A stretch of DNA of 12,617 nucleotides, taken from NCBI GenBank assembly GCA_947259315.1, contig CAMYLR010000018.1, positions 1-12,617 of the forward strand. Reading direction: 5' to 3'. Made by a program: the position numbers and the translations under genes. Each line of letters begins with the position of its first letter. Position 1 is the stretch's first letter. The notes below the pieces were generated by a model. That model did no database searches. It saw only the letters and a program-made list of their open reading frames with translations, and was not told the origin of the DNA. This document shows, one piece after another, positions 1,020 through 12,592 of the stretch. This stretch comes from an uncultured Gemmatimonadales bacterium (GTDB lineage: Bacteria > Gemmatimonadota > Gemmatimonadetes > JACCXV01 > JAHWKZ01).

Positions 1020-4000
1020 CTATGTCTTTTGTGCCGGCGCCCTGGCGACTTCCAGCAGCGCCGCGTTACGAGGGTGAGCGAGAAAAGTCGGTTTGAGGTC
1101 CGCGGGCAGATTACGCTCAAGTGATCGCATCGCGCGCAACGCCCGTGCCAGCGCGATCCGTTCACGGCGTCGGTCACCGAGCGCGCGACGGACATCGGCC
1201 AGCCGCTCCGCAGCAGCACGCTCGAGTGCGATCTCTCCCAGATGAGCGGCGTGATCCGCAACCTCACCCAGCGATTCCGCGATCTCTGCAGTTGGTTCCA
1301 ACTCTGTCTCGGCATCGGCCCTAAGGAACTTGACCAGAGCTTCCAGCGATCGGTTTCCGGCCAGATCCGCATCACACGATTCGGGCCGACCCCCTCGCGC
1401 GCGCACCTCCGCGCGACATCGGTGAGCTCGAGCGAGTGCCGTGGCGGCAACCAAGCCTGCTGAATTGGTAGTTTGCTCGGTTTTTGCGAAAGCGTCCGCC
1501 GCTTTCGCCCACTCGCCAAGCGCCACCAACCAACGCCCTTCACGCAGTTGCACCTCGTGGCGTTGCTCCTCGACCCCGAGATCATCTACGAGCCGGTCAG
1601 CTTCGTCGAGCGCGGCCCGCGCGCGCTCGTGATCTAGCGCTTGCAAGTACGCGTCAAAAAGCATCAAGCGGGTATTGATTTGGTTCACAGGCTCCAGTAT
1701 TTCGTCTGCCTGTTCGAGGCAGATGTCCAGGTGCCTGAGCGCATCGCTAATCTTGCCGAGCGAGATCTCACAAGTGATTCGGTTCTGTAATGTCACGTAC
1801 CGGGCAAAGGTCCAGCCGATGTCCTCGAGCAGCCGTTCCGCCTGACGCAACGTATTGAGCGCCTCACGCCAAGCCCCCCGCTCCATCGCGACCCGGCCCA
1901 AGTTATTGAGCGCAGAGTACATCATGCGTCGATCACCGATCGCCTCCGCCGTGTGAAACGCCCGCTTGTAATGGCTCTCCGCCCCGTCCAGTTCGTTGCG
2001 CAGATCGAGTAGCAAGTTTCCGATATTCGATAGGCTCTTCGCGATCCCGACCTGATCACCGTGTTTCTCGCGCAACTGGAGCGCGACAGAATGGTGTTCG
2101 AGCGCCTTGTCGGCTCGACTCCGATAGTAGAATACGACACCCATATCGTTGCGTAGGTCGGCCGCTACCAACGGTTCGTCTTGGGGTACCGTCGCCAGGC
2201 CACGCTCAAAAAGCTCGATCGCTTCATCGAGCTTGCCGCGGTACCACGCGACGCGACCGCGTCGTTCCACCCCGCGCGCCACCCAGGTTGGTCGTCCCTC
2301 CGCCGTGCCAAGCTCCTCCAGTCTCTGAAACCACTTCCCTGCCGTCTCGGAATCACCCCGGTAAAGGAGCACGGTCCCAAATATCTCGTTGAAATCCGCG
2401 CGGTCATCGATATCCGGAATCACGTCGGGATTTGACTCAATGGCAGTAGCTACACGCTGCAGGTACTCCTCCGCCCGCGGTAGATCGTAACTCGTGGCTG
2501 CTGCCCGACCCGCGAGCCAGAGGTGCGGTGCCGCCTTTTCTGGTTGCCCCGCGTGCCAGTAGTGAAGCGCGAAAAACTCGGCCTCAGCTCCCATGCGATC
2601 GGCGAAGTGGTCTTCGCCGATCCGTGCCGCCGACTCGTGGAGAACGCGGCGCACACGAACCAACAAGCCGCTGTATGCGACCTCCTGCATGAGTGCATGT
2701 TGAAATCGAAAATGGTCTTCGCCGTCGACCGCCAGGAACCCCTCGCGTTGAAGGGACACCAGAGCTTCGTCGAAGCTGATCGGTTGTTCCTCCAGTGCAT
2801 ACAACAGGCCCAGCAGCGATATCGAGAAGCGGTTCCCCAGCACCGCAGCTGTTTGGAGCAGTGTCTGTAGCGGCGGTGACAACCGGTCGATACGTGACAT
2901 GATCAGGCCCTGTAGCGTGCCGGGCACGGTGGTTGGCGCATCCGCCGTTCCCGCCGTCTCGCCAAGCGTCCGTATCAGTTCCTCGAGGAATAGAGGATTG
3001 CCGGCGCTGCGCTCGATCAAATCACGACGATCCTCCGGCGCGAGATCGTCGAGCAAATCACCAAGCAGCTCTTCGGCGGTCTCCGAGTCTAGCGGCGCGA
3101 CCTGGAGCCACTCGACTTTCTCCGGCAGCCATGGCCGCGACTCCAGCGGTCGACTGGTCACCAGCGCCGCAATCGGGCGGCGGACCAAGGTCGGAAGCAG
3201 GAATGCCAAGAACTCCTGAGTCGCTTCATCTGCCCAGTGAACGTCTTCGATCACCAGTGTGACCGGTTGCTTCCGCGCTGAGGCCTCGAGTAGTGCCGCG
3301 GTTGCCAACCAGCGGTTCTCCCGCGCCGACTGGGGATCTTCGGTGTCGACCTCCGGCGCAGCCTCCAGATTCGCTTCTCGCGCCAAGCTCTCAACACCAG
3401 CGCGGTGTGCTTCACCATCGGTGCCGAGCAGTGCGAACGCCCAATCGCTTGCCGATCGGTCATCGGTCTCCGCGCAGAGCTGGCAAAAGAGCTCGGTTGG
3501 GGGTGGACGCTGACCGGGCAACCGGATCGGCGTGAAACCGATCTCGAGTGTCAGGTGATCGGCATCCGTTCGGTCCAACGCTTCTTGGACCAGACGGCTT
3601 TTCCCGATTCCGGCCTCGGCCTCGATGATCAACGCTCCTCCCTCGCTCACCCACGCTCGCTCGAGAAATGCCTGGATCGTCGAGATCTCCTCATCGCGAC
3701 CGACAAACGGAGTTCTCTCAAAGCGCACTTCCGGCATCGACTCCTCATAACCCACGATCCGGAACGCGCGTACCGGCTGGGACACACCCTTCAGCGTAAG
3801 AGGCGGCACCTCCTCGGCGACAAACCGATCGGAGATCCGTTGGTGAACCATCTCACTCACCAAGACGGTGTTTGGTTCAGCGGCGGTCTCCAGTCGCGAC
3901 GCGACGTTGACCGTATCGCCCAACACGGTGTACTGGAGTTGCATCTCAGATCCCAGTTGCGCCGCCACAACGGTGCCGATGTTGATCCCAACCCGAAGCA

Positions 4001-4481
4001 ACAGAGACTGATCTGACTCTTTGTTATGGCGTTCGATGATGTCGAGCATCGCGAGACCCGCGAGCACCGCGCGTTCGGGGTCGTTCTCGTGCGCTAACGG
4101 AGCACCAAACAATCCCATGACCGCGTCACCCATGAACTTGTCGACGTACCCCTCGTAAGCGTAGATGGCGTCTCCGAGGCTCATGAGAAGAGGATTAAGG
4201 AGCAGCGTTATCTCTTCCGGGTCCATCACCTCCGACATCGAAGTGAACCCCTTGATGTCGGCGAACAGAACGGCGACCTCGCGTCGATCGCCGCGTAGTT
4301 CCTTACGCGCGATTTCAAATTTCGAGCGCAGGCCAGGGGGCAGTTCGGGTCCGGTTGGGGCTGGGGGCGCTTCGGGCGCCACCCCGGCGGATGAGTCGGG
4401 CAGTGGCAAACGAGTTCCGCAGTTGGAGCAAAACTTTGCCCCCGCCGGGAGCTGAGTGCCGCATTCGGTACAGTACTTCAT
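1020..4481 (-). CDS. Zinc-ribbon class III adenylyl cyclase with STAND/AAA ATPase and TPR domains (copy A)
   Basis: This 1153-residue cytoplasmic signalling protein is predicted to convert ATP to cAMP. A double-CxxC zinc ribbon (C4, C7, C18, C21) is followed by a Pro-rich linker and one cyclase domain (about 65-240). Metal-binding Asp75 (FADIKGFT) and Asp119, purine-binding Lys115 and Thr185, and transition-state Asn192 and Arg196 are all present. The Lys/Thr pair is typical of class IIIb adenylyl cyclases. With only one catalytic domain it should work as a homodimer. An ATPase module follows, with FVGRDEE (259-265), Walker A AEAGIGKS (288-295), Walker B LVIEDVHWAD (409-418) and the STAND-type motif GNPLFLEEL (494-502). 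From about 690 to 1100 there are helical TPR-like repeats. The order matches mammalian soluble adenylyl cyclase. The ATG has only a weak ribosome binding site. The gene heads the operon with the glycosylase and receiver-like genes and is divergent from the lipoprotein at 4650. It could make cGMP, but Lys/Thr argues for cAMP. Confidence 0.92.
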   Translation of the reverse strand: MKYCTECGTQLPAGAKFCSNCGTRLPLPDSSAGVAPEAPPAPTGPELPPGLRSKFEIARKELRGDRREVAVLFADIKGFTSMSEVMDPEEITLLLNPLLMSLGDAIYAYEGYVDKFMGDAVMGLFGAPLAHENDPERAVLAGLAMLDIIERHNKESDQSLLLRVGINIGTVVAAQLGSEMQLQYTVLGDTVNVASRLETAAEPNTVLVSEMVHQRISDRFVAEEVPPLTLKGVSQPVRAFRIVGYEESMPEVRFERTPFVGRDEEISTIQAFLERAWVSEGGALIIEAEAGIGKSRLVQEALDRTDADHLTLEIGFTPIRLPGQRPPPTELFCQLCAETDDRSASDWAFALLGTDGEAHRAGVESLAREANLEAAPEVDTEDPQSARENRWLATAALLEASARKQPVTLVIEDVHWADEATQEFLAFLLPTLVRRPIAALVTSRPLESRPWLPEKVEWLQVAPLDSETAEELLGDLLDDLAPEDRRDLIERSAGNPLFLEELIRTLGETAGTADAPTTVPGTLQGLIMSRIDRLSPPLQTLLQTAAVLGNRFSISLLGLLYALEEQPISFDEALVSLQREGFLAVDGEDHFRFQHALMQEVAYSGLLVRVRRVLHESAARIGEDHFADRMGAEAEFFALHYWHAGQPEKAAPHLWLAGRAAATSYDLPRAEEYLQRVATAIESNPDVIPDIDDRADFNEIFGTVLLYRGDSETAGKWFQRLEELGTAEGRPTWVARGVERRGRVAWYRGKLDEAIELFERGLATVPQDEPLVAADLRNDMGVVFYYRSRADKALEHHSVALQLREKHGDQVGIAKSLSNIGNLLLDLRNELDGAESHYKRAFHTAEAIGDRRMMYSALNNLGRVAMERGAWREALNTLRQAERLLEDIGWTFARYVTLQNRITCEISLGKISDALRHLDICLEQADEILEPVNQINTRLMLFDAYLQALDHERARAALDEADRLVDDLGVEEQRHEVQLREGRWLVALGEWAKAADAFAKTEQTTNSAGLVAATALARAHRCRAEVRARGGRPESCDADLAGNRSLEALVKFLRADAETELEPTAEIAESLGEVADHAAHLGEIALERAAAERLADVRRALGDRRRERIALARALRAMRSLERNLPADLKPTFLAHPRNAALLEVARAPAQKT

Positions 4482-4649
4482 TCCAGCGCTTGGGTGTGGG
4501 TTACATATGCCTTTCTGACCACAGAAGTATTATTATACTGCCTTCCGCTCGTGGTGCTGCGCTCTCCATATCGGTAACCCCAGGCCATGCGGCATCGGGC
4601 GGTAAACAGACACGGACGCCCCACGCACTCCTACAGGAGGGTCCCCTCG
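4482..4649. promoter_or_regulatory. Divergent promoter region between cyclase A and lipoprotein A
   Basis: This 168-nt non-coding gap must hold the promoters of both divergent genes. Its most AT-rich part is the inverted repeat AGTAT-TATT-ATACT at 4526-4539. On the minus strand it contains a perfect TATAAT (4537-4532), about 50 nt before the cyclase ATG. On the plus strand it contains TATACT (4534-4539), which would leave a leader of roughly 100 nt before the lipoprotein ATG. I found no convincing TTGACA-like -35 box at 16-18 nt spacing on either strand; the minus-strand hexamer at 17 nt is GCAGCA. The palindrome may only be overlapping -10 boxes, or it may also bind a regulator. Confidence 0.5.
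4635..4641 (+). promoter_or_regulatory. Ribosome binding site deciding the start of lipoprotein A
   Basis: AGGAGGG lies 8 nt before the ATG at 4650. The reading frame is open further upstream to an ATG at 4587, but that start has no such site and would put 21 basic residues in front of the signal peptide. The site therefore fixes the start at 4650. Confidence 0.9.
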
Positions 4650-6371
4650 ATGCGCACGCTGTTTGCCGTTTTTTCCATCGTCTTTGCCATAACTCTGGTT
4701 GGCTGCCAAAACGATGATGCATTGCTCCCGTCCTCGCCTTCGCGATCACTTGACACCGCTGCCGACGACGAAGCGCTCTGTGAGCTCGCCGGGATGATTC
4801 TCGATCGCGGGAAGCTCAACGCCGTCTGCAAGCAACTCAGAAATATTGAACGCCAAGCCGATCGTGGTGAGACGGTCGACGCAGCCCAAAAAGCACGCGA
4901 CTTGATCGCGTTTGTCCTCGACCACTTTCGCGGCGGTCGGCTCAACGATCCACCGGGTCCAGAGACGACCGAGGACGTTCTCGGCGAGCTGATCGCCGGC
5001 ATCGCCGAGCTCGGAGGTCTGCTGCCACCCGGCAGCGGCCCGATCCCACCCGGCGCATTCACCGAGGAAGGCGCATTCGAGGAGTGCAGCGCTTCAGCGG
5101 GATGCACCGTTACTACCGGCACCGAGTTCGCCGGTGCGAACATCCCAGCAGGGACCCCGTTGGTCGACGTGAACACCGGTGAGCCGGTGGACGATTTGAT
5201 CGTCGTCATCAGCCGTGAGAGCGACACGCTCGACCCGTTCACGCAGTTTGGGTTCGACGATTTTCCGCTCTTCTACAACATCACCACTATTCCTGAGGTC
5301 GAGATCCCGAGCAATGGTGGTCTGAACGGCGCTCAGGAGGACGAGATGATCGTCGGCGTGTGTGTCGTCGATCCACCGGATCCATTGGCACCGCCTGAGG
5401 GAGCTGACCTCCGTATCGCCCGTCTCTTCGACGGCGATGAGGGATCGGAAGTCGAGATCACCCCGCTGCGCGACGCTTCGTTCCTCGATTGCACCGGCGC
5501 GAGCACGAACGGAGAGGCTCTAACGGGCTGGCGCGGTTGGCTGGCGTCAGTTTTCGGTCCTGCGGCGTCGGTTCTCGACGTGACCCCGCTGTACGCCAAT
5601 CCAGGCCGGCTAGGTGGCGCGATTTCGGCGTTTAGCACGTACGGCGCGGTGGACGTTTCAGCTCCCGAGCCGGATGGCACCATTCGGGTATCCGGCGGTC
5701 CCTTGGTCGGAAGTGGAACGGGATCCGTTGGCGCGGCGACGCTCGAGGCGGCGTTGAACGACCCGGACAACTTCGGAGGCGAGGGAACCGTCGCCTGCGA
5801 TGTTGATCTCCAGGGCCTGGTCCAGAGTATCGCAGCCGGGGACCTCGTCGACGGTCAGGGAAATCTCCAAGTGGACCTCTTCTTCGCTGGCCTAACTGGA
5901 CAGACATTGTCAGCCGAGGAGGCAACCGAGCTCGCGGCCTTCATGAACGCCGGCGGCGTCGTATACATCAGCGGCAACTCGGGTGGCAATGAAGGGCCGA
6001 GCTATAACCCGCTATTCTCGGAGCTCGATGTCGCGGATCAGTACGACGTCAACACAACAGGCAGCCCCGGCATAACGTCGACGTCGATACCTGTAGCTAC
6101 GCCGGTGACCAACGGGCCGTTCGGCGTTGTGGGTCCGATGAGTTCCACGATTTTCCGGATTCTCCAAACCGACAGTAGCACTGATGTAGCAAGCGTTGGG
6201 GAACTCCCGATTGTGGCCGAGTTGGGTGTCGGCGACGGCTACCTGTCGTGGATGGGCGATCCGCTCTACTTCAACCTGTTCACCGATTCCGACGCGGACA
6301 ACTTGAACTACTTCCTGAACCTGTTCGCGCTCGGGTGCTCAGACGGTGGGGGAGAAGAGGTCCTGCAGTAG
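4650..6371 (+). CDS. Lipoprotein of unknown function with C-terminal GATase-like/Rossmann-type domain (lipoprotein A)
   Basis: This 573-residue protein starts with a type II signal peptide: a hydrophobic stretch (4-17) and lipobox LVGC with lipidated Cys19. Gln follows at +2, so outer-membrane sorting is likely if the host has a Lol system. A short helical segment (41-95) with two Cys comes next. A beta-rich region (about 150-340) contains MIVGVCVVDPPDP (233-245), LRIARLFDG (254-262) and AISAFSTYGAVDV (324-336), a style I associate with Gemmatimonadota envelope proteins. From about 385 to 563 lies an alpha/beta part: strand VDLFFAG (408-414), a helix, then strand GGVVYISGN (435-443). This resembles the class I glutamine amidotransferase-like fold of ThuA/DUF4350-type proteins, but I see no catalytic triad, so it may bind a ligand rather than catalyse. 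It is divergent from cyclase A and ends at a shared terminator. The biochemical role is unknown. Confidence 0.85.
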   Translation: MRTLFAVFSIVFAITLVGCQNDDALLPSSPSRSLDTAADDEALCELAGMILDRGKLNAVCKQLRNIERQADRGETVDAAQKARDLIAFVLDHFRGGRLNDPPGPETTEDVLGELIAGIAELGGLLPPGSGPIPPGAFTEEGAFEECSASAGCTVTTGTEFAGANIPAGTPLVDVNTGEPVDDLIVVISRESDTLDPFTQFGFDDFPLFYNITTIPEVEIPSNGGLNGAQEDEMIVGVCVVDPPDPLAPPEGADLRIARLFDGDEGSEVEITPLRDASFLDCTGASTNGEALTGWRGWLASVFGPAASVLDVTPLYANPGRLGGAISAFSTYGAVDVSAPEPDGTIRVSGGPLVGSGTGSVGAATLEAALNDPDNFGGEGTVACDVDLQGLVQSIAAGDLVDGQGNLQVDLFFAGLTGQTLSAEEATELAAFMNAGGVVYISGNSGGNEGPSYNPLFSELDVADQYDVNTTGSPGITSTSIPVATPVTNGPFGVVGPMSSTIFRILQTDSSTDVASVGELPIVAELGVGDGYLSWMGDPLYFNLFTDSDADNLNYFLNLFALGCSDGGGEEVLQ

Positions 6372-6397
6372 AGACCTCACCCTCGCAACACGAAAGA

Positions 6398-6425
6398 AGA
6401 GGGGTGACCATCCGGTCACCCCTCT
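6398..6425. terminator. Bidirectional intrinsic terminator between convergent genes
   Basis: AGAGGGGTGACC (6398-6409) pairs perfectly over 12 bp with GGTCACCCCTCT (6414-6425) around the loop ATCC. A pyrimidine/T-rich tail (CTTCTTG) follows on the plus strand, and a matching CTTTCG tail follows on the minus strand. It lies in the 70-nt gap between lipoprotein A (plus) and cyclase B (minus), so it can end transcription from both sides. Confidence 0.85.
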
Positions 6426-6441
6426 CTTCTTGTACCAGGTA

Positions 6442-9400
6442 TTACGACGACTCGGAAGGAACCGCGCCTCGCGGGTCTGCATCGAACCTCTCGAGAAGTT
6501 CTTCGGGTAGGTTCTCGCGCAGAGAATCCCTCGCCTCGGCGGCACGCGAGCCCGCCGCTCGCGCGCCCGACTCATCGCCCAAGTCACGAAGCACCTCGGC
6601 CAACCGCTGAAACGCCGCCAGCGCGAGGGAAAGATCTCCGACCTGCAGAGCCAATTCGCCCGCCTCGGTGAGATTATCAGCGGCCGGCTGCAGGGTCCCT
6701 CGCGCGGCAGCTCCGTCGGCGCAAAGGTACTGAACCAACGCTAAGATCGATGGCTGCAAGTCGGGGTCCGCAGCGGAGCAGTTCTCCTCCACCTCCACGC
6801 CGGCGCGTGCGTTGGCTCGCCACTGGTGCGCGGCTGCAATCGTCGCGATATCGACATCTCGTTGCTGGCGGGCCAACTCCTCGGCGCGTGAGGCAGCAGC
6901 AGCAGCCCCTTCCCATTCCCCGCGAGCGGCTGCCAGCCGACCCTCGGAGAGCGCGATCCAATCGTCGTGTTCGGTCACTTTGAGCTCATCAGCCAGCTCT
7001 CGCGCCTTATGTAACCACTCACCGGCCCCGGTGTCGTCCAAAGCGCAAAAACAAACCTCAAACTGAAGTATTCGAACCGCGACGCGATTCCCGGCATCGA
7101 GGATCTCGTCTCCCTCCTGGAGACACGCCTTCAAGACCCGAATCGCACTTCCGATCTGTCCCAAACGCACGTGACAGGCAGCCTGATTCCTCAAACTGAG
7201 GAATCGGAGCTGGGATAACCCGATCTCTTCCGTTACCTCCTGCATGTTTTCGAAGCGATCGATTGCGCTGGCATACTCGCCGAGCTCTAGATCGAGCGTT
7301 CCAAGATTAAGAAGAAGATTACACTGCATTTCGCGGTCGCCGTTCTCTCGAGCGAGAACAAGTGCGCGTTCGTAGTGATCTCGAGCGCCTTCGGGGTCGT
7401 TCTGAAGACGAAGCAGCACATTGCCGATGTTCATAAGGCTCTTGGCATATCCAAACCGATCTTCGGCTTGCTCGCGCAAGTGCAGCGCTTGTCTGTGCTC
7501 GTCTAGCGCGCGATCGACTTCTAAATGAAAGTGGTGCACGAGACCCATCCCGCTGTGCAGATCGGCGGTTGCCCGCTTGTCCGTGGGGGACCGCGCGAGC
7601 CCCTGCTGGAAGAAGACCTGCGCCTCGTCAACTTGTCCGCGGTACAGCGCAATCGCGCCGCGCTGAAACAGGGCCTTGCCGATCCACTCTTCCCGCTTCT
7701 CGATCGTACCAAGTTCTTGCAGTTGTTCGAACCATCGCTCACCGTCCTCGAACCGACCGCGCTCGCGAAGAACGGTACCGTAGGTCGTCATGAATTCCGC
7801 TCGTTGGGCAGACTCGGGTAGCACGCCCGAATCCTCTTGGATCACCTCGGAGAGCCGATTGAGGAAGCGCTCCGCGGCGTGGAGCGCGTAATTGTCCGCG
7901 GCTACGCGGCCGGCGCTCCAAAGATGCGGCGCGGCATCGGCGTGCAGACCCGCCTCCCAGAAGTGATGGGCAAAAAACGGGGCCTCAGCCTCCAAACGCT
8001 CGGCGTAGTGCTCTCCGCCCAATCGCGCGGCCGACTCGTGAAGCACTTTGCGCACTCCACCGAGGATGCTTCCGTAGGCGACCTCCACGACCAAAGCGTG
8101 GCGGAAGCGTCCGATACTATCGGCAACGGGAATCTCGAAGAATCCCTCTCCCTCCAACTCTTGCAAAGCATCGTCGAAACTGACCGGGTGCTGCTCGAGG
8201 CGATAAATCCGCCCAAGTAGCTCAACCGAAAAGGTGGCGCCCAGCACGCTCCCCATCTGGAGTAGCAGCCGGACGGATTCATCCAAACGGTCGATACGGG
8301 ACTGAAGCAACCCTTGGATCGTTCCCGGCACTGAACTGTCGCCGGTCCCCACCTCATCGCGCAGCGACCGAGCCAGCTCTTCGAGATAGAAGGGGTTCCC
8401 CTGGCTCCGCCGGATCAGCTCCTTGCGGTCCTCGGGCCTTAAAGATTCGAAGAAACCCCCCAGGATCGATCGTGCGGCCTCCTCATCGAGGTTGCGGAGC
8501 TCGAGGCGCTCCGCCCCGCCGGGGACCCATTCGAGCGAAGCACCCGAACGAGCCGTAACGATGACACCAACGCGACGGCCAGCGATCAAGCCTATCAAGA
8601 AGCCGAGGAACTCCTCGTCGGTTTCGTCCGCCCAGTGAGCGTCCTCGAATCGGATCAGAACGGGAACCGTCCGAGCCCGGGCACCAAGAAGCGCCATCAC
8701 CGCCAGCCATCGGTTCTGCCGAGCGATACCTGGATCGATATCCTGGGTCGATTCACCGTCGACTGTTTGGAAAAGCTGTCGAACGAGCTGATCGATCCCT
8801 GCCTCGTGATTCTGGAAGTCCTCGCCCAAGAGCTCGGTGGCACTCTCCCTCGCGCTCGCATCATCCTCAGGCACTACCCGGTCCGGATCGGCGACCAGCT
8901 GTCGAAAGAGATCGGTCGAAACAGATTGGCTGCCCGGGAGATCGATCGGGGAAAACTCGACATCGAGAAGATCGAGCTGCAGGCTGGCTCGTGAGAGGGC
9001 TTCGTTCACGAGCCGGCTCTTTCCCGCACCAGCCTCGGCCTCTATGACGAACGTCCCCGGCGCTCCTTCGACGACCCCATGCAAGAAGGAGTCGACCAGC
9101 GCGAGTTCCTCGTCACGACCGACAAATGGGGTCGCCTCACGTGTGGGCGCTGGCGCGGACGGCCGGAAACGGACCACGCGGTAGGCCTGCAGTGGCTCGG
9201 CCTTGCCCTTGACCGTGACTGGATCGACGGCTTCGGTCTCGAACCGGGAATCGATCCGTTCGTGCACGGATTGGCTCACGAGCACCGAGTCAGGAGCGGC
9301 CTCTCCCTCGAGACGCGAGGCCACGTTGACGGTGTCACCCATCACCGTGTACTGCTGCCGCGATTCTGACCCTACGTGTGCAGCTACCACCTCACCTTGG

Positions 9401-9909
9401 TTGAGGCCGACGCGGATCGAGAGCAGATGATCGGAATCGTCGCTTCTCCGCGCCGTCACCTCCAGCATGTCGAGTGCCGCCAGAACCGCTCGCTCGGCGT
9501 CATTCTCGTGCGCAATCGGAGCCCCAAACAGAGCCATGATCGCGTCCCCGATGTACTTGTCGACGTACCCTTCGTACCGATACACGACGTCGGCTAGCTC
9601 GCCCAGCAGCCCGTGCATCACGAGGCTGACCTCCTCGGGGTCGAGCCGTTCGGAGAGCGCGGTGAAGCCGGAGAGATCCGCGAATAAGACGACAACCTCG
9701 CGCCGATCGCCCCGAAGCTCCTCGCGGGCACGCTCGTACTTGGCTCGGAGCTCGGGCGGGATGTTCGGTTCAGGGGCCGCCGGTACGGTCTCCGGTTCTG
9801 CGACTGAGCCAGTTACTGGCGTACCGCATTGAGCGCAAAACTTCGCCCCAGCTGGCAGAGGCGAGCCGCACTCAGTGCAGAATTGATCGGGTTGGGATAG
9901 GTCTGGCAT
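6442..9909 (-). CDS. Zinc-ribbon class III adenylyl cyclase with STAND/AAA ATPase and TPR domains (copy B)
   Basis: This 1155-residue protein is a paralogue of the cyclase at 1020-4481 along its whole length and should also make cAMP. The zinc ribbon has C11, C14, C25 and C28. The cyclase domain (about 68-245) keeps Asp78 and Asp122 for metals, Lys118 and Thr188 for adenine, and Asn195 and Arg199 for the transition state. The ATPase module has FVGRDEE (262-268), Walker A AEAGAGKS (291-298), Walker B VLIRFEDAHWAD (417-428) and GNPFYLEEL (504-512). TPR-like helical repeats run from about 690 to 1120, and the tail shares an 'NLPxxL...PRxA' ending with copy A. The cyclase domain is the best-conserved part and the TPR half the most divergent, as expected if the copies sense different partners. 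The ATG has a good ribosome binding site (GAGG, 9 nt upstream). Unlike copy A, it is followed by a terminator rather than by operon partners. Confidence 0.92.
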   Translation of the reverse strand: MPDLSQPDQFCTECGSPLPAGAKFCAQCGTPVTGSVAEPETVPAAPEPNIPPELRAKYERAREELRGDRREVVVLFADLSGFTALSERLDPEEVSLVMHGLLGELADVVYRYEGYVDKYIGDAIMALFGAPIAHENDAERAVLAALDMLEVTARRSDDSDHLLSIRVGLNQGEVVAAHVGSESRQQYTVMGDTVNVASRLEGEAAPDSVLVSQSVHERIDSRFETEAVDPVTVKGKAEPLQAYRVVRFRPSAPAPTREATPFVGRDEELALVDSFLHGVVEGAPGTFVIEAEAGAGKSRLVNEALSRASLQLDLLDVEFSPIDLPGSQSVSTDLFRQLVADPDRVVPEDDASARESATELLGEDFQNHEAGIDQLVRQLFQTVDGESTQDIDPGIARQNRWLAVMALLGARARTVPVLIRFEDAHWADETDEEFLGFLIGLIAGRRVGVIVTARSGASLEWVPGGAERLELRNLDEEAARSILGGFFESLRPEDRKELIRRSQGNPFYLEELARSLRDEVGTGDSSVPGTIQGLLQSRIDRLDESVRLLLQMGSVLGATFSVELLGRIYRLEQHPVSFDDALQELEGEGFFEIPVADSIGRFRHALVVEVAYGSILGGVRKVLHESAARLGGEHYAERLEAEAPFFAHHFWEAGLHADAAPHLWSAGRVAADNYALHAAERFLNRLSEVIQEDSGVLPESAQRAEFMTTYGTVLRERGRFEDGERWFEQLQELGTIEKREEWIGKALFQRGAIALYRGQVDEAQVFFQQGLARSPTDKRATADLHSGMGLVHHFHLEVDRALDEHRQALHLREQAEDRFGYAKSLMNIGNVLLRLQNDPEGARDHYERALVLARENGDREMQCNLLLNLGTLDLELGEYASAIDRFENMQEVTEEIGLSQLRFLSLRNQAACHVRLGQIGSAIRVLKACLQEGDEILDAGNRVAVRILQFEVCFCALDDTGAGEWLHKARELADELKVTEHDDWIALSEGRLAAARGEWEGAAAAASRAEELARQQRDVDIATIAAAHQWRANARAGVEVEENCSAADPDLQPSILALVQYLCADGAAARGTLQPAADNLTEAGELALQVGDLSLALAAFQRLAEVLRDLGDESGARAAGSRAAEARDSLRENLPEELLERFDADPRGAVPSESS

Positions 9910-9916
9910 GTTTTTT

Positions 9917-9922
9917 ATCCTC
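9917..9922 (-). promoter_or_regulatory. Ribosome binding site of cyclase B
   Basis: On the minus strand GAGGAT precedes the ATG at 9909, with 9 nt between GAGG and the start and an A-rich spacer. This is stronger than anything in front of copy A, so the two cyclases may be translated at different rates. Confidence 0.75.
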
Positions 9923-9969
9923 GAAGTATGCTATTGCATTCTCTGAGGTCAGGCCAAGCATTCCTCTTG

Positions 9970-9976
9970 AAGGAGG
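9970..9976 (+). promoter_or_regulatory. Ribosome binding site fixing a GTG start for lipoprotein B
   Basis: AAGGAGG lies 5 nt before the GTG at 9982. The frame is open upstream to an ATG at 9928, but that start would overlap the divergent promoter and add 18 residues before the signal peptide. The GTG is therefore preferred. Confidence 0.85.
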
Positions 9977-9981
9977 CTCCC

Positions 9982-11331
9982 GTGCGGTTCTCTCTTCGAT
10001 GTCTTCCTGTATTCTCGATCGGTCTGTTGCTTGTGGGATGCCAGGGTGACACCCGGGCACCGGTTGCCCCAGACCGTACGCTTGAAGGCGCGCCGGCAAT
10101 CAAGTGTAATTGGGACAAGAGCGTAACCGACATCTATGAGAACAAGTTCAAGAGCGATAAGACCGCTGCGTGCAAGGACGCCGCCGAGTTTGTGGACGCT
10201 GGCGATCTCACCGCGGCCGAGCTGGTGATCAACGAGCTCTTGGTGGCGCTCTACAACGACTACGCGGCGTGCGTGGGCGCACCTTTTGGCACGCAAGACC
10301 CGGCCGCCTGCCCGTTCAAGGACGGCGCCAATGTCGAGCGCGGCGGTGTGGTCACCTTCGCCCGAGCAACCTGCGACATAGCCCCACCCCCGGACGGCTT
10401 ACCCCGGTCCGGTGACGTCGATTGTGTTGTTCCAGATCCCGAGAACTTGGCGCCACCGACCTTTCCGCCGACCGACCCCACGGCGGACACAGCTGGAGGC
10501 TGGATCGTCGCTGGGCCAATTCGTGAGGACGCGGTTGTCATCCTTCCCAACGGTGAATTCGCGGTTGAGTTGGACGCCCTAACAGTCACCGAGGTGTACG
10601 TCGCGATCCGCGAGAACAAAAAAACCTCGGTCGTCGGCGAATGCCCGGATAAATCCGATAACGATTGCGTGCAGAACAACTACACCGTCGACATGGACGG
10701 CGTAGGCCAAGATTATGACGACAACGACCCGATCGCCGATGGGCCTCCACTGGGACTGTATGTCGAGATCTGCGAGGGGCCGCCTGAGCAAGACATCACA
10801 GACTTCGCTGACGTCCCAGGCCGCTGCGCGCTTGACCCCAATACCAACGAGTTCGAATGCGCACCAGCCGAAGAAACAGAACTGCGCGGTCTCCTAGACC
10901 GTCAACCGGTCGGTTGCAGCAAGGGGGCCCTGGCGTTCGCTCCGAGCACATGGACTGCGGTCGACGCTGACCTCGCGGAGCGCGACGTCGTCTGCAAGGT
11001 GAACTCTCAATCAGCGGCGGTTTCGGAAGGCACGACATGCACCATCCTCGAGCGCGGACCGATTGTTCCGAAGGTCGTCGACAGCTGCGAGACAGTGGCG
11101 ACCCCGTTATTCGGTCCCAAGGCCGCGGAATGCACGATGCGTGACATTCTGGCCGCGAACATCGACGAAGAACACGACGGGTCGGCGGTCCTCTACACGA
11201 TGGAAGCAGCGAAGATCGAGAGCGGTGTGTCCCACTTCGGAAGTGACACCTTTAGCCTCCGCCAAGAGGACCCGGTCTTCGGGAATGTCAAGGAAGTGTT
11301 CGTAGACGTCCGGCCTCCGGGACAACAATAG
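9982..11331 (+). CDS. Cysteine-rich lipoprotein of unknown function (lipoprotein B)
   Basis: This 449-residue protein starts at GTG and has a type II signal peptide: hydrophobic core about 8-18, lipobox LVGC, lipidated Cys20 and Gln at +2. The mature part holds 16 further cysteines spread over its length (42, 64, 97, 110, 131, 148, 221, 229, 264, 282, 293, 312, 338, 353, 369, 384), an even number that suits disulfide bonding outside the cytoplasm. Residues 237-249 (DMDGVGQDYDDND) resemble a thrombospondin type 3-like calcium loop. LYVEICEGPPE (259-269) and GVSHFGSDTFSL (415-426) are faint counterparts of segments in lipoprotein A, whose C-terminal alpha/beta domain is absent here. The N-terminal part (41-97) is helical in both. 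Like lipoprotein A, it is divergent from a cyclase. I do not recognise the family. It may bind a ligand or a surface structure, but nothing shows enzymatic activity. Confidence 0.82.
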   Translation: MRFSLRCLPVFSIGLLLVGCQGDTRAPVAPDRTLEGAPAIKCNWDKSVTDIYENKFKSDKTAACKDAAEFVDAGDLTAAELVINELLVALYNDYAACVGAPFGTQDPAACPFKDGANVERGGVVTFARATCDIAPPPDGLPRSGDVDCVVPDPENLAPPTFPPTDPTADTAGGWIVAGPIREDAVVILPNGEFAVELDALTVTEVYVAIRENKKTSVVGECPDKSDNDCVQNNYTVDMDGVGQDYDDNDPIADGPPLGLYVEICEGPPEQDITDFADVPGRCALDPNTNEFECAPAEETELRGLLDRQPVGCSKGALAFAPSTWTAVDADLAERDVVCKVNSQSAAVSEGTTCTILERGPIVPKVVDSCETVATPLFGPKAAECTMRDILAANIDEEHDGSAVLYTMEAAKIESGVSHFGSDTFSLRQEDPVFGNVKEVFVDVRPPGQQ

Positions 11332-11485: not shown

Positions 11486-12592
11486 ATGAGGGTCGTCATC
11501 TCCGCGGTGGTGTTCCTGTTCGTGACGAGCACCTCCGCTTTCGCACAAGACACAACCACGTTCGAAAACCCGATGGTGGACGAGGGTCATCGACTCGATC
11601 TCTGTTTGAGTTGGGGCGCCGATTGCGGCGAGCCCGCCGCCACGGCGTTCTGTGAGGCGGAAGGGTTCGAGAAAGCGGCGCGGTGGGAAGTCGCATCCGA
11701 CATCGGCGATCGCACCCCAACCAAAACGCTGCAAGACGGGCTCGTTTGCGACGAGGGATTCTGCGATGGCTTTAGCTCGGTGACGTGCGAAGCACCCGCG
11801 CCGACCCTCGTGCAAGCAAAGAGCCTCACCACTATCGCACTCGATAGCGGCAGCAAAGTCGAGTTCCTCGAGCCCGAGCCGGGAGTGGTGATGATCGTCG
11901 AGCAAGGTGAGTGGCCGGCGACACCCGCCCTTACGCAACTCGATCTCGGCGAAGACGCCACACCGGCTGATGTCTTCCGCGCACTCGCTCCCGACCAACC
12001 GGTTCCGGAGTCGATTCAGGTCGCCACGCTGGCGGTTCCCGAAGAGGAAGAGCCAGAGGAGCCAGAGCCCGACATCGCGAACAGCGGCGAGCAGATCACG
12101 CTTGTCGCCAAGCCGGCCCTGCCCAAGCTCGAGGGCAAGGAAGTCAAGCCGGTCATGAAGGCCAAGCGCGTCGAGCCGACCGACAAGATACCGGCGCAGC
12201 CAAGTGCGAAGCCGGATCCCGACAACACGCCCAAGCAAGAACCAGCTGATCTGCCACCGACCAACGAAGCAAAGAACCGGGCGGATTGGTTCCAGAAGGA
12301 GTTTTGCCATGCGGGAGGTGGTCGCGACGTTACGTGGTGCTGGCTAAACCGACAGGGCAGGACCAACTACAGTGTGTGGAGCATCGGGATCAGCGCGACC
12401 GTCTACTCATGCGCTGGGACGACTCGATTCGTAACCCAGTACAAGCGGTTTGGGAAATGGAAGACGTATGGCTCAGTCGATGTTCTGCCCGGGCACTACA
12501 TCAGCTTTGGCCGGCTCGGGATCCCGCGCACGCGGCGCAGCGTTGCCGAGGGGTCGTGTTACCACCATTCCGGCGTCGGCGTAAAGCTGTAG
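11486..12592 (+). CDS. Secreted two-domain cysteine-containing protein with Pro/Glu/Lys-rich linker, function unknown
   Basis: This 368-residue protein has a type I signal peptide (1-20, cleavage likely after AFA, before QD). The first domain (about 25-101) has six cysteines (40, 47, 56, 88, 93, 101) in a pattern CLSWGADCGEPAATAFC...DIGDRTPT...VCDEGFCDGF. I recall similar modules in secreted bacterial proteins but cannot name the family; three disulfides are likely. A beta-like segment (108-180) follows, then an acidic PEEEEPEEPEP stretch (185-195) and a basic Lys/Pro-rich stretch (209-252). This resembles the periplasm-spanning linker of TonB, although there is no retained membrane anchor. 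The C-terminal domain (about 263-368) has four cysteines (274, 285, 309, 358) and many aromatic and basic residues (WCWLNRQG, YKRFGKWKTYG). It could be a two-headed periplasmic adaptor or a cell-surface binding protein. It has its own ribosome binding site and lies beyond a terminator, so it is probably a separate unit. Only 25 nt remain after the stop, with nothing visible. Confidence 0.82.
   Translation: MRVVISAVVFLFVTSTSAFAQDTTTFENPMVDEGHRLDLCLSWGADCGEPAATAFCEAEGFEKAARWEVASDIGDRTPTKTLQDGLVCDEGFCDGFSSVTCEAPAPTLVQAKSLTTIALDSGSKVEFLEPEPGVVMIVEQGEWPATPALTQLDLGEDATPADVFRALAPDQPVPESIQVATLAVPEEEEPEEPEPDIANSGEQITLVAKPALPKLEGKEVKPVMKAKRVEPTDKIPAQPSAKPDPDNTPKQEPADLPPTNEAKNRADWFQKEFCHAGGGRDVTWCWLNRQGRTNYSVWSIGISATVYSCAGTTRFVTQYKRFGKWKTYGSVDVLPGHYISFGRLGIPRTRRSVAEGSCYHHSGVGVKL

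Follow-up and report, generated by a model that had tools for sequence, protein, structure and literature searches.

A candidate envelope-to-cytoplasm signalling module in Gemmatimonadota: lipoproteins encoded beside soluble adenylyl cyclases or Ser/Thr kinases

When a soluble adenylyl cyclase and an envelope lipoprotein are encoded back to back, twice in a row, do they belong to one signalling system, and if so, is the cyclase the only possible partner of the lipoprotein? The locus that raises this question comes from an uncultured Gemmatimonadales bacterium. The window, meaning the whole stretch of 12,617 nucleotides analysed here, opens contig C18, which is 68 kb long and belongs to a draft genome of 2.4 Mb that is 96% complete. 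Within the window lie two consecutive units, each composed of a cyclase gene on the minus strand and a divergent lipoprotein gene on the plus strand. A sequence-only reading had described this repeated two-gene arrangement; all four genes were confirmed, with gaps of 168 and 72 bp inside the units.

1020..4481, minus strand: cyclase 1, 1153 aa; Zn ribbon (aa 3-25), class III cyclase domain (67-235), AAA_16/STAND-like ATPase (258-433), TPR region (about 740-1020); transmembrane segment absent
4482..4649, no strand: intergenic region 1, 168 bp; near-palindromic AT-rich AGTATTATTATACT, candidate bidirectional -10 element
4650..6371, plus strand: lipoprotein 1 (lip1), 573 aa; lipobox TLVGC (Cys19); A1 family; helical N-terminal part, ZU5-like middle (by eye), then C-terminal part
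6397..6426, no strand: inverted repeat between the convergent lipoprotein 1 and cyclase 2 genes, terminator-like on both strands
6442..9909, minus strand: cyclase 2 (cyc2), 1155 aa; architecture as in cyclase 1
9910..9981, no strand: intergenic region 2, 72 bp; AGGAGG, the ribosome site of lipoprotein 2
9982..11331, plus strand: lipoprotein 2 (lip2), 449 aa from a GTG start; lipobox LLVGC

The inverted repeat is strong and long and divides unit 1 from unit 2. Directly 3' of lipoprotein 2, positions 11486-12592 (plus strand) encode a secreted 368-aa protein that could be part of unit 2; it has a signal peptide and Cys in its N-terminal region (LSWGADCGEPAATAFC), and it matches no Pfam family.

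The cyclases and lipoproteins of the window

The zinc-ribbon/cyclase/STAND/TPR architecture first read from the letters holds for both cyclases, which match the Pfam families Zn_Ribbon_1, Guanylate_cyc (above its curated cut-off, E 2.9e-29 and 2.6e-32), AAA_16 and TPR and contain no membrane segment. The motifs FAD, YVDK, GDA and NVASR, located by eye without a structural alignment, are present in both; they cover the two metal-binding Asp, the Lys base contact and the Asn/Arg transition-state residues of class III cyclases. The Walker motifs are also intact by eye. Cyclase 1 carries, in QYTVLGDTVNVASR, a Thr where class IIIa enzymes have Asp, and we take it to be class IIIb-like. By domain score and motifs both proteins would be class III adenylyl cyclases, and cAMP production is predicted.

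Two known identities were considered and rejected. The best NCBIfam match is TIGR03903, over the cyclase and ATPase regions (E 2e-64 and 3e-60), but its scores of 218 and 204 bits lie far below the cut-off of 705.75 and the window cyclases have no Pkinase match, so that they are not TOMM kinase/cyclases, which carry an N-terminal kinase. A Pycsar defence system, composed of a PycC cyclase and an effector, was likewise discarded, since PADLOC matches only the cyclase domain and TPR; the neighbours are lipoproteins without a PADLOC match, not cyclic-nucleotide-gated effectors.

Conserved cyclases had been set against strongly differing lipoproteins, and this contrast survives in part: the cyclases are 47% identical over their full length and BLASTP between lip1 and lip2 gives nothing convincing (E 0.03-0.04), but the N-terminal parts of the two families align over 78 columns by profile-profile comparison (E 2.3e-5, probability 76). 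Lip1 and lip2 thus seem to share an N-terminal part, and both lipoboxes end in LVGC. Neither protein matches Pfam or NCBIfam. In the wider lipoprotein family, the C-terminal parts match Big_1 (6 of 22), RCC1 (two), CARDB, CarboxypepD_reg, Big_3_5 and others; such domain types are typical of adhesion or ligand binding. Structure models were of low confidence, with a mean pLDDT of 35.7 for lip1 alone, too poor for use, and of 39.3 for lip2 modelled with one homologue, where only the last 115 residues mostly reach 60-80. A fold search with this poor lip2 model returned no match below E 0.001 and only weak Ig/CBM-like ones, and a PDB profile search with the lipoprotein family no credible match.

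Two further members of the lip1 type were seen. One, from the same genome (L108, G000:C24, 6313-7164), has no lipobox, is cut at the contig end and is unpaired, being divergent from a putative potassium-channel gene and not from a cyclase. The other (L107) is the start of a lip1-type lipoprotein at the end of a 3-kb contig, G005:C114, which also has the start of another cyclase.

Conservation of the pairing in related genera

Lipoboxes were called by pattern and genes by a crude oligomer-based caller. Over 0.73 Mb of this genome, a lipobox occurs in 5.5% of called genes, and close divergent pairs outside the window have a lipoprotein on 6 of 84 sides. Two cyclase/lipoprotein pairs in a row are therefore unlikely by chance (about 0.005, conservation elsewhere uncounted).

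Cyclase homologues of at least 44% identity were detected solely within the same bacterial family and order, where most genomes are drafts: two in G002, two in G004 (one cut by the contig end) and one fragment in G005. Together with the window's two loci, four loci of these relatives (G002:C136, G002:C48, G004:C16 and G004:C141) have a readable 5' flank, and a lipoprotein adjoins the cyclase in 5 of the 6. The pairing is kept in both G002 and G004, and the close homologues display neither of the outcomes named beforehand as refuting, mostly unrelated neighbours or an origin of the modules in this one genome. The divergent orientation holds for four of the five pairs, including G002:C136 (142 bp apart) and G004:C16 (JAICNR010000049.1), where the lipoprotein is a lip2 homologue; in G002:C48 the lipoprotein gene lies on the same strand, directly upstream of the cyclase.

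In the sixth locus, G004:C141, the cyclase and its neighbours are kept and the lipoprotein alone is absent. Its common neighbours with G002:C136 are two cyclases with several membrane segments, and the lipoprotein was therefore lost or gained there as one gene; the remaining flanking genes vary from locus to locus. These short tandem membrane cyclases (L103, G002:C136, 4011-6487; L105, G004:C141, 2469-4978) follow the lipoprotein in G002:C136 and stand in its place, facing the Zn-ribbon cyclase, in G004:C141. Adjacent membrane cyclases occur only at these two of the relatives' loci, and they are possibly a membrane relay or an extra output.

Cyc2 and the G004:C16 cyclase form a clade (support 95), and so do their lipoproteins (support 100); other cyclase branching is poorly resolved (65). 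By these trees the cyc2 and lip2 subfamilies are co-inherited, and the lip2 profile finds no homologue outside the bacterial family at E 1e-5.

The survey of homologues suggested by the sequence-only reading gave a different result at greater distance, where the refuting outcome of unrelated neighbours did appear. Among remote homologues of the phylum (28-32% identity) a lipoprotein is the 5' neighbour in 1 of 16 loci, and this single one is an unrelated hydrolase; the difference from the close cyclases (5/6 vs 1/16) has a Fisher p of 0.0013, for loci that are related by descent and hence are not independent trials. Lipoprotein pairing is a trait of this cyclase subclade, not of the domain architecture.

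The lip1 family beside transmembrane Ser/Thr kinases

Throughout the phylum, members of the lip1 family normally lie beside transmembrane Ser/Thr kinases. An alignment of lip1, the two lipoproteins of G002 and the C24 relative (A1) was used as a profile against 395 genomes of the phylum and matched in 35, of which hardly any has this cyclase. Twenty A1 loci were read: in 17, a member of one Ser/Thr kinase family is encoded immediately upstream on the same strand; in the remaining three the kinase is one gene away (L221), just downstream (L216) or absent (L215). The complete upstream kinases are 833-923 aa long. A single strong hydrophobic segment separates their Pkinase domain from a conserved C-terminal part, about 500 aa in length, and the kinases are 43-63% identical to the first one; at L217 the contig includes just the C-terminal part. 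With only one hydrophobic segment, basic on its flank, the kinases probably place the C-terminal TolB-like/TPR part in the periplasm. Zn_Ribbon_1, found in the window cyclases, is also matched by 2 of the 17 aligned kinases.

The reverse test started from a profile of the kinase C-terminal part (A4), which matches in 162 of the 395 genomes and does not match the window cyclases. A lipoprotein lies directly downstream in 49 of the 50 A4 loci read: in all of the best 30, 15 of which had neither been fetched through the lipoprotein nor been included in the profile, and in 19 of 20 lower-ranked loci picked from the list blind to their neighbours (L270 is the negative one; L265, L266 and L284 were settled by reading frames). 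Among 20 control kinases from three genomes, the next gene is a same-strand lipoprotein in 2, the lipobox rule having been applied partly by eye to the kinase loci and by script only to the controls, which could slightly favour the former. Earlier, lower counts already differed from the controls (Fisher p 5e-11 for 46/50 and 8e-9 for 31/35), again for loci with a common descent and thus not independent. By these frequencies (17/20 for A1 and 49/50 for A4, vs 2/20 for controls), a lipoprotein/signalling-protein pair occurs phylum-wide, and in this bacterial family a soluble adenylyl cyclase stands where the others have the kinase. The bridge between kinase and cyclase runs through the lip1 family; lip2 is tied to it by a weak N-terminal profile match alone.

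The partner itself is variable. A4 members of about 620 aa (L329-L341, L343, L344) have no kinase domain and instead an N-terminus of roughly 115 aa with hydrophobic segments, which by eye rules out a CadC-like DNA-binding N-terminus; a lipoprotein follows in 10 of 15, and the output domain is therefore dispensable. What recurs is a lipoprotein together with a TPR-containing partner; what changes is the output part. In G002:C32 (L345, 3208-5445) a class III cyclase domain is joined to an A4 part, which in other genera belongs to the Ser/Thr kinases; this fusion is a natural kinase/cyclase output swap, and no adjoining lipoprotein was found there. Some A4 loci have a second kind of lipoprotein, with the motif 'ISDGAH...FFFLPP'. 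Runs of neighbouring Ser/Thr kinase genes were seen in G050:C2 (65-76 kb) and G050:C6 (478-496 kb).

Proposed signalling scheme, alternatives and known systems

The lip1 family has at least two kinds of signalling partner, the cyclase being one, and the whole suggests a widespread, undescribed envelope-to-cytoplasm signalling module in Gemmatimonadota. For the window, we see about an even chance that each unit is a two-gene module composed of a lipoprotein and a cytoplasmic enzyme, and we favour the predicted direction in which the lipoprotein would be the input and the enzyme the output. The lipoprotein would be anchored on the outer face of a membrane, its N-terminal part conserved and its C-terminal part variable and serving recognition, and its role as input-setter is plausible. 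In the kinase version it would meet the kinase C-terminal part outside the inner membrane and could touch it directly, phosphorylation taking place in the cytoplasm. In this bacterial family the soluble adenylyl cyclase would take the kinase's place and, as a class IIIb-like homodimer under the gating of its AAA_16/STAND-like ATPase and TPR scaffold, produce cAMP, to be read by proteins with cNMP-binding domains. Lacking any membrane segment, the cyclase could reach the lipoprotein only through a relay; this may be encoded elsewhere, or the coupling may run through shared expression from the common promoter region. More tentatively, and somewhat short of even, lipoprotein-coupled modules may exist throughout the phylum in which a strongly varying recognition lipoprotein has a signalling partner of interchangeable output, be it a Ser/Thr kinase, a soluble adenylyl cyclase or else a membrane form with no known output, and the window would represent a non-homologous replacement of kinase by cyclase.

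The alternative that survives best, although we consider it rather unlikely, reverses the roles: the lipoprotein would be the target, its expression or export being controlled by cAMP through a CRP-type regulator or by the kinase, and the enzyme would sense another cytoplasmic cue. It agrees with the very short shared intergenic regions, both with opposed -10-like sites (scores 11, 8, 9 and 10, modestly above 22 other divergent regions with a median of about 7 and a maximum of 11), with the four cNMP-binding proteins encoded by the genome, one of them on the window's contig, and with a periplasm out of reach for a soluble cyclase. It fits less well with a site search that found no CRP-type TGTGA-N6-TCACA at the two loci, with the kinase version, which is co-directional and hence lacks a divergent control region, and with the large, probably periplasmic part of the kinase itself. 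Co-expression only, in which both genes would belong to one envelope or surface programme under a common promoter without signalling to each other, is more improbable still: divergent pairs often share nothing but control, and the G004:C141 cyclase exists without a lipoprotein, but the cyc2 and lip2 subfamilies are co-inherited and the lip1 family adjoins an unrelated signalling enzyme throughout the phylum. Chance neighbours multiplied by tandem duplication in one genome, a reading to which the two units in tandem lend themselves, are very improbable indeed: the lipoprotein background is about 5-9%, and the relatives, where either subfamily is found singly, in different genera and amid different flanking genes, already refute this reading.

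If the favoured reading of lipoprotein input and enzyme output is true, a single lipoprotein family can be connected either to phosphorylation or to cAMP. About 30 Ser/Thr kinase genes per genome were counted in three Gemmatimonadota genomes, and we know of no input for any kinase of this phylum; a lipoprotein genetically fixed as the partner of one kinase family, and likewise of a soluble cyclase family, provides directly testable candidate inputs or targets.

The sequence-only reading knew of no described system of this kind. Neither the cyclase-lipoprotein nor the kinase-lipoprotein pairing was found described in the open-access literature, to which the search was mostly confined, but near-analogues exist. 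PknG is a kinase that carries a metal-binding part and TPR. In Corynebacterium glutamicum it is the soluble Ser/Thr kinase of the GlnX-GlnH-PknG system, where the membrane protein GlnX is proposed as the relay from the lipoprotein GlnH (PMC9769921). As in the window, a lipoprotein gene adjoins that of a soluble signalling enzyme, and there the lipoprotein is needed for the enzyme's action (PMC9769921); unlike the window, where no membrane relay gene lies beside the pairs, its operon includes GlnX, its enzyme is a kinase, and GlnH, which binds amino acids, differs in kind from the window lipoproteins. In Sinorhizobium meliloti, the outer-membrane-associated receptor NsrA feeds the adenylate cyclases CyaK, CyaD1 and CyaD2 (PMC7529298), again an envelope protein with an adenylate cyclase. 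NsrA has, however, a beta-barrel portion, its cyclases are inner-membrane-associated (PMC7529298) and the system has no lipoprotein/STAND-cyclase pair; the window lipoproteins have no Pfam match and low-confidence models, and the window cyclases no membrane segment. The TIGR03903 TOMM fusion shares the cyclase and ATPase regions and differs by its kinase domain. Mammalian soluble adenylyl cyclase has the same domain order, no membrane segments and the class IIIb-type Thr, with two cyclase domains where the window proteins have one, and homology searches found many bacterial relatives of the Zn-ribbon/cyclase/AAA_16/TPR type.
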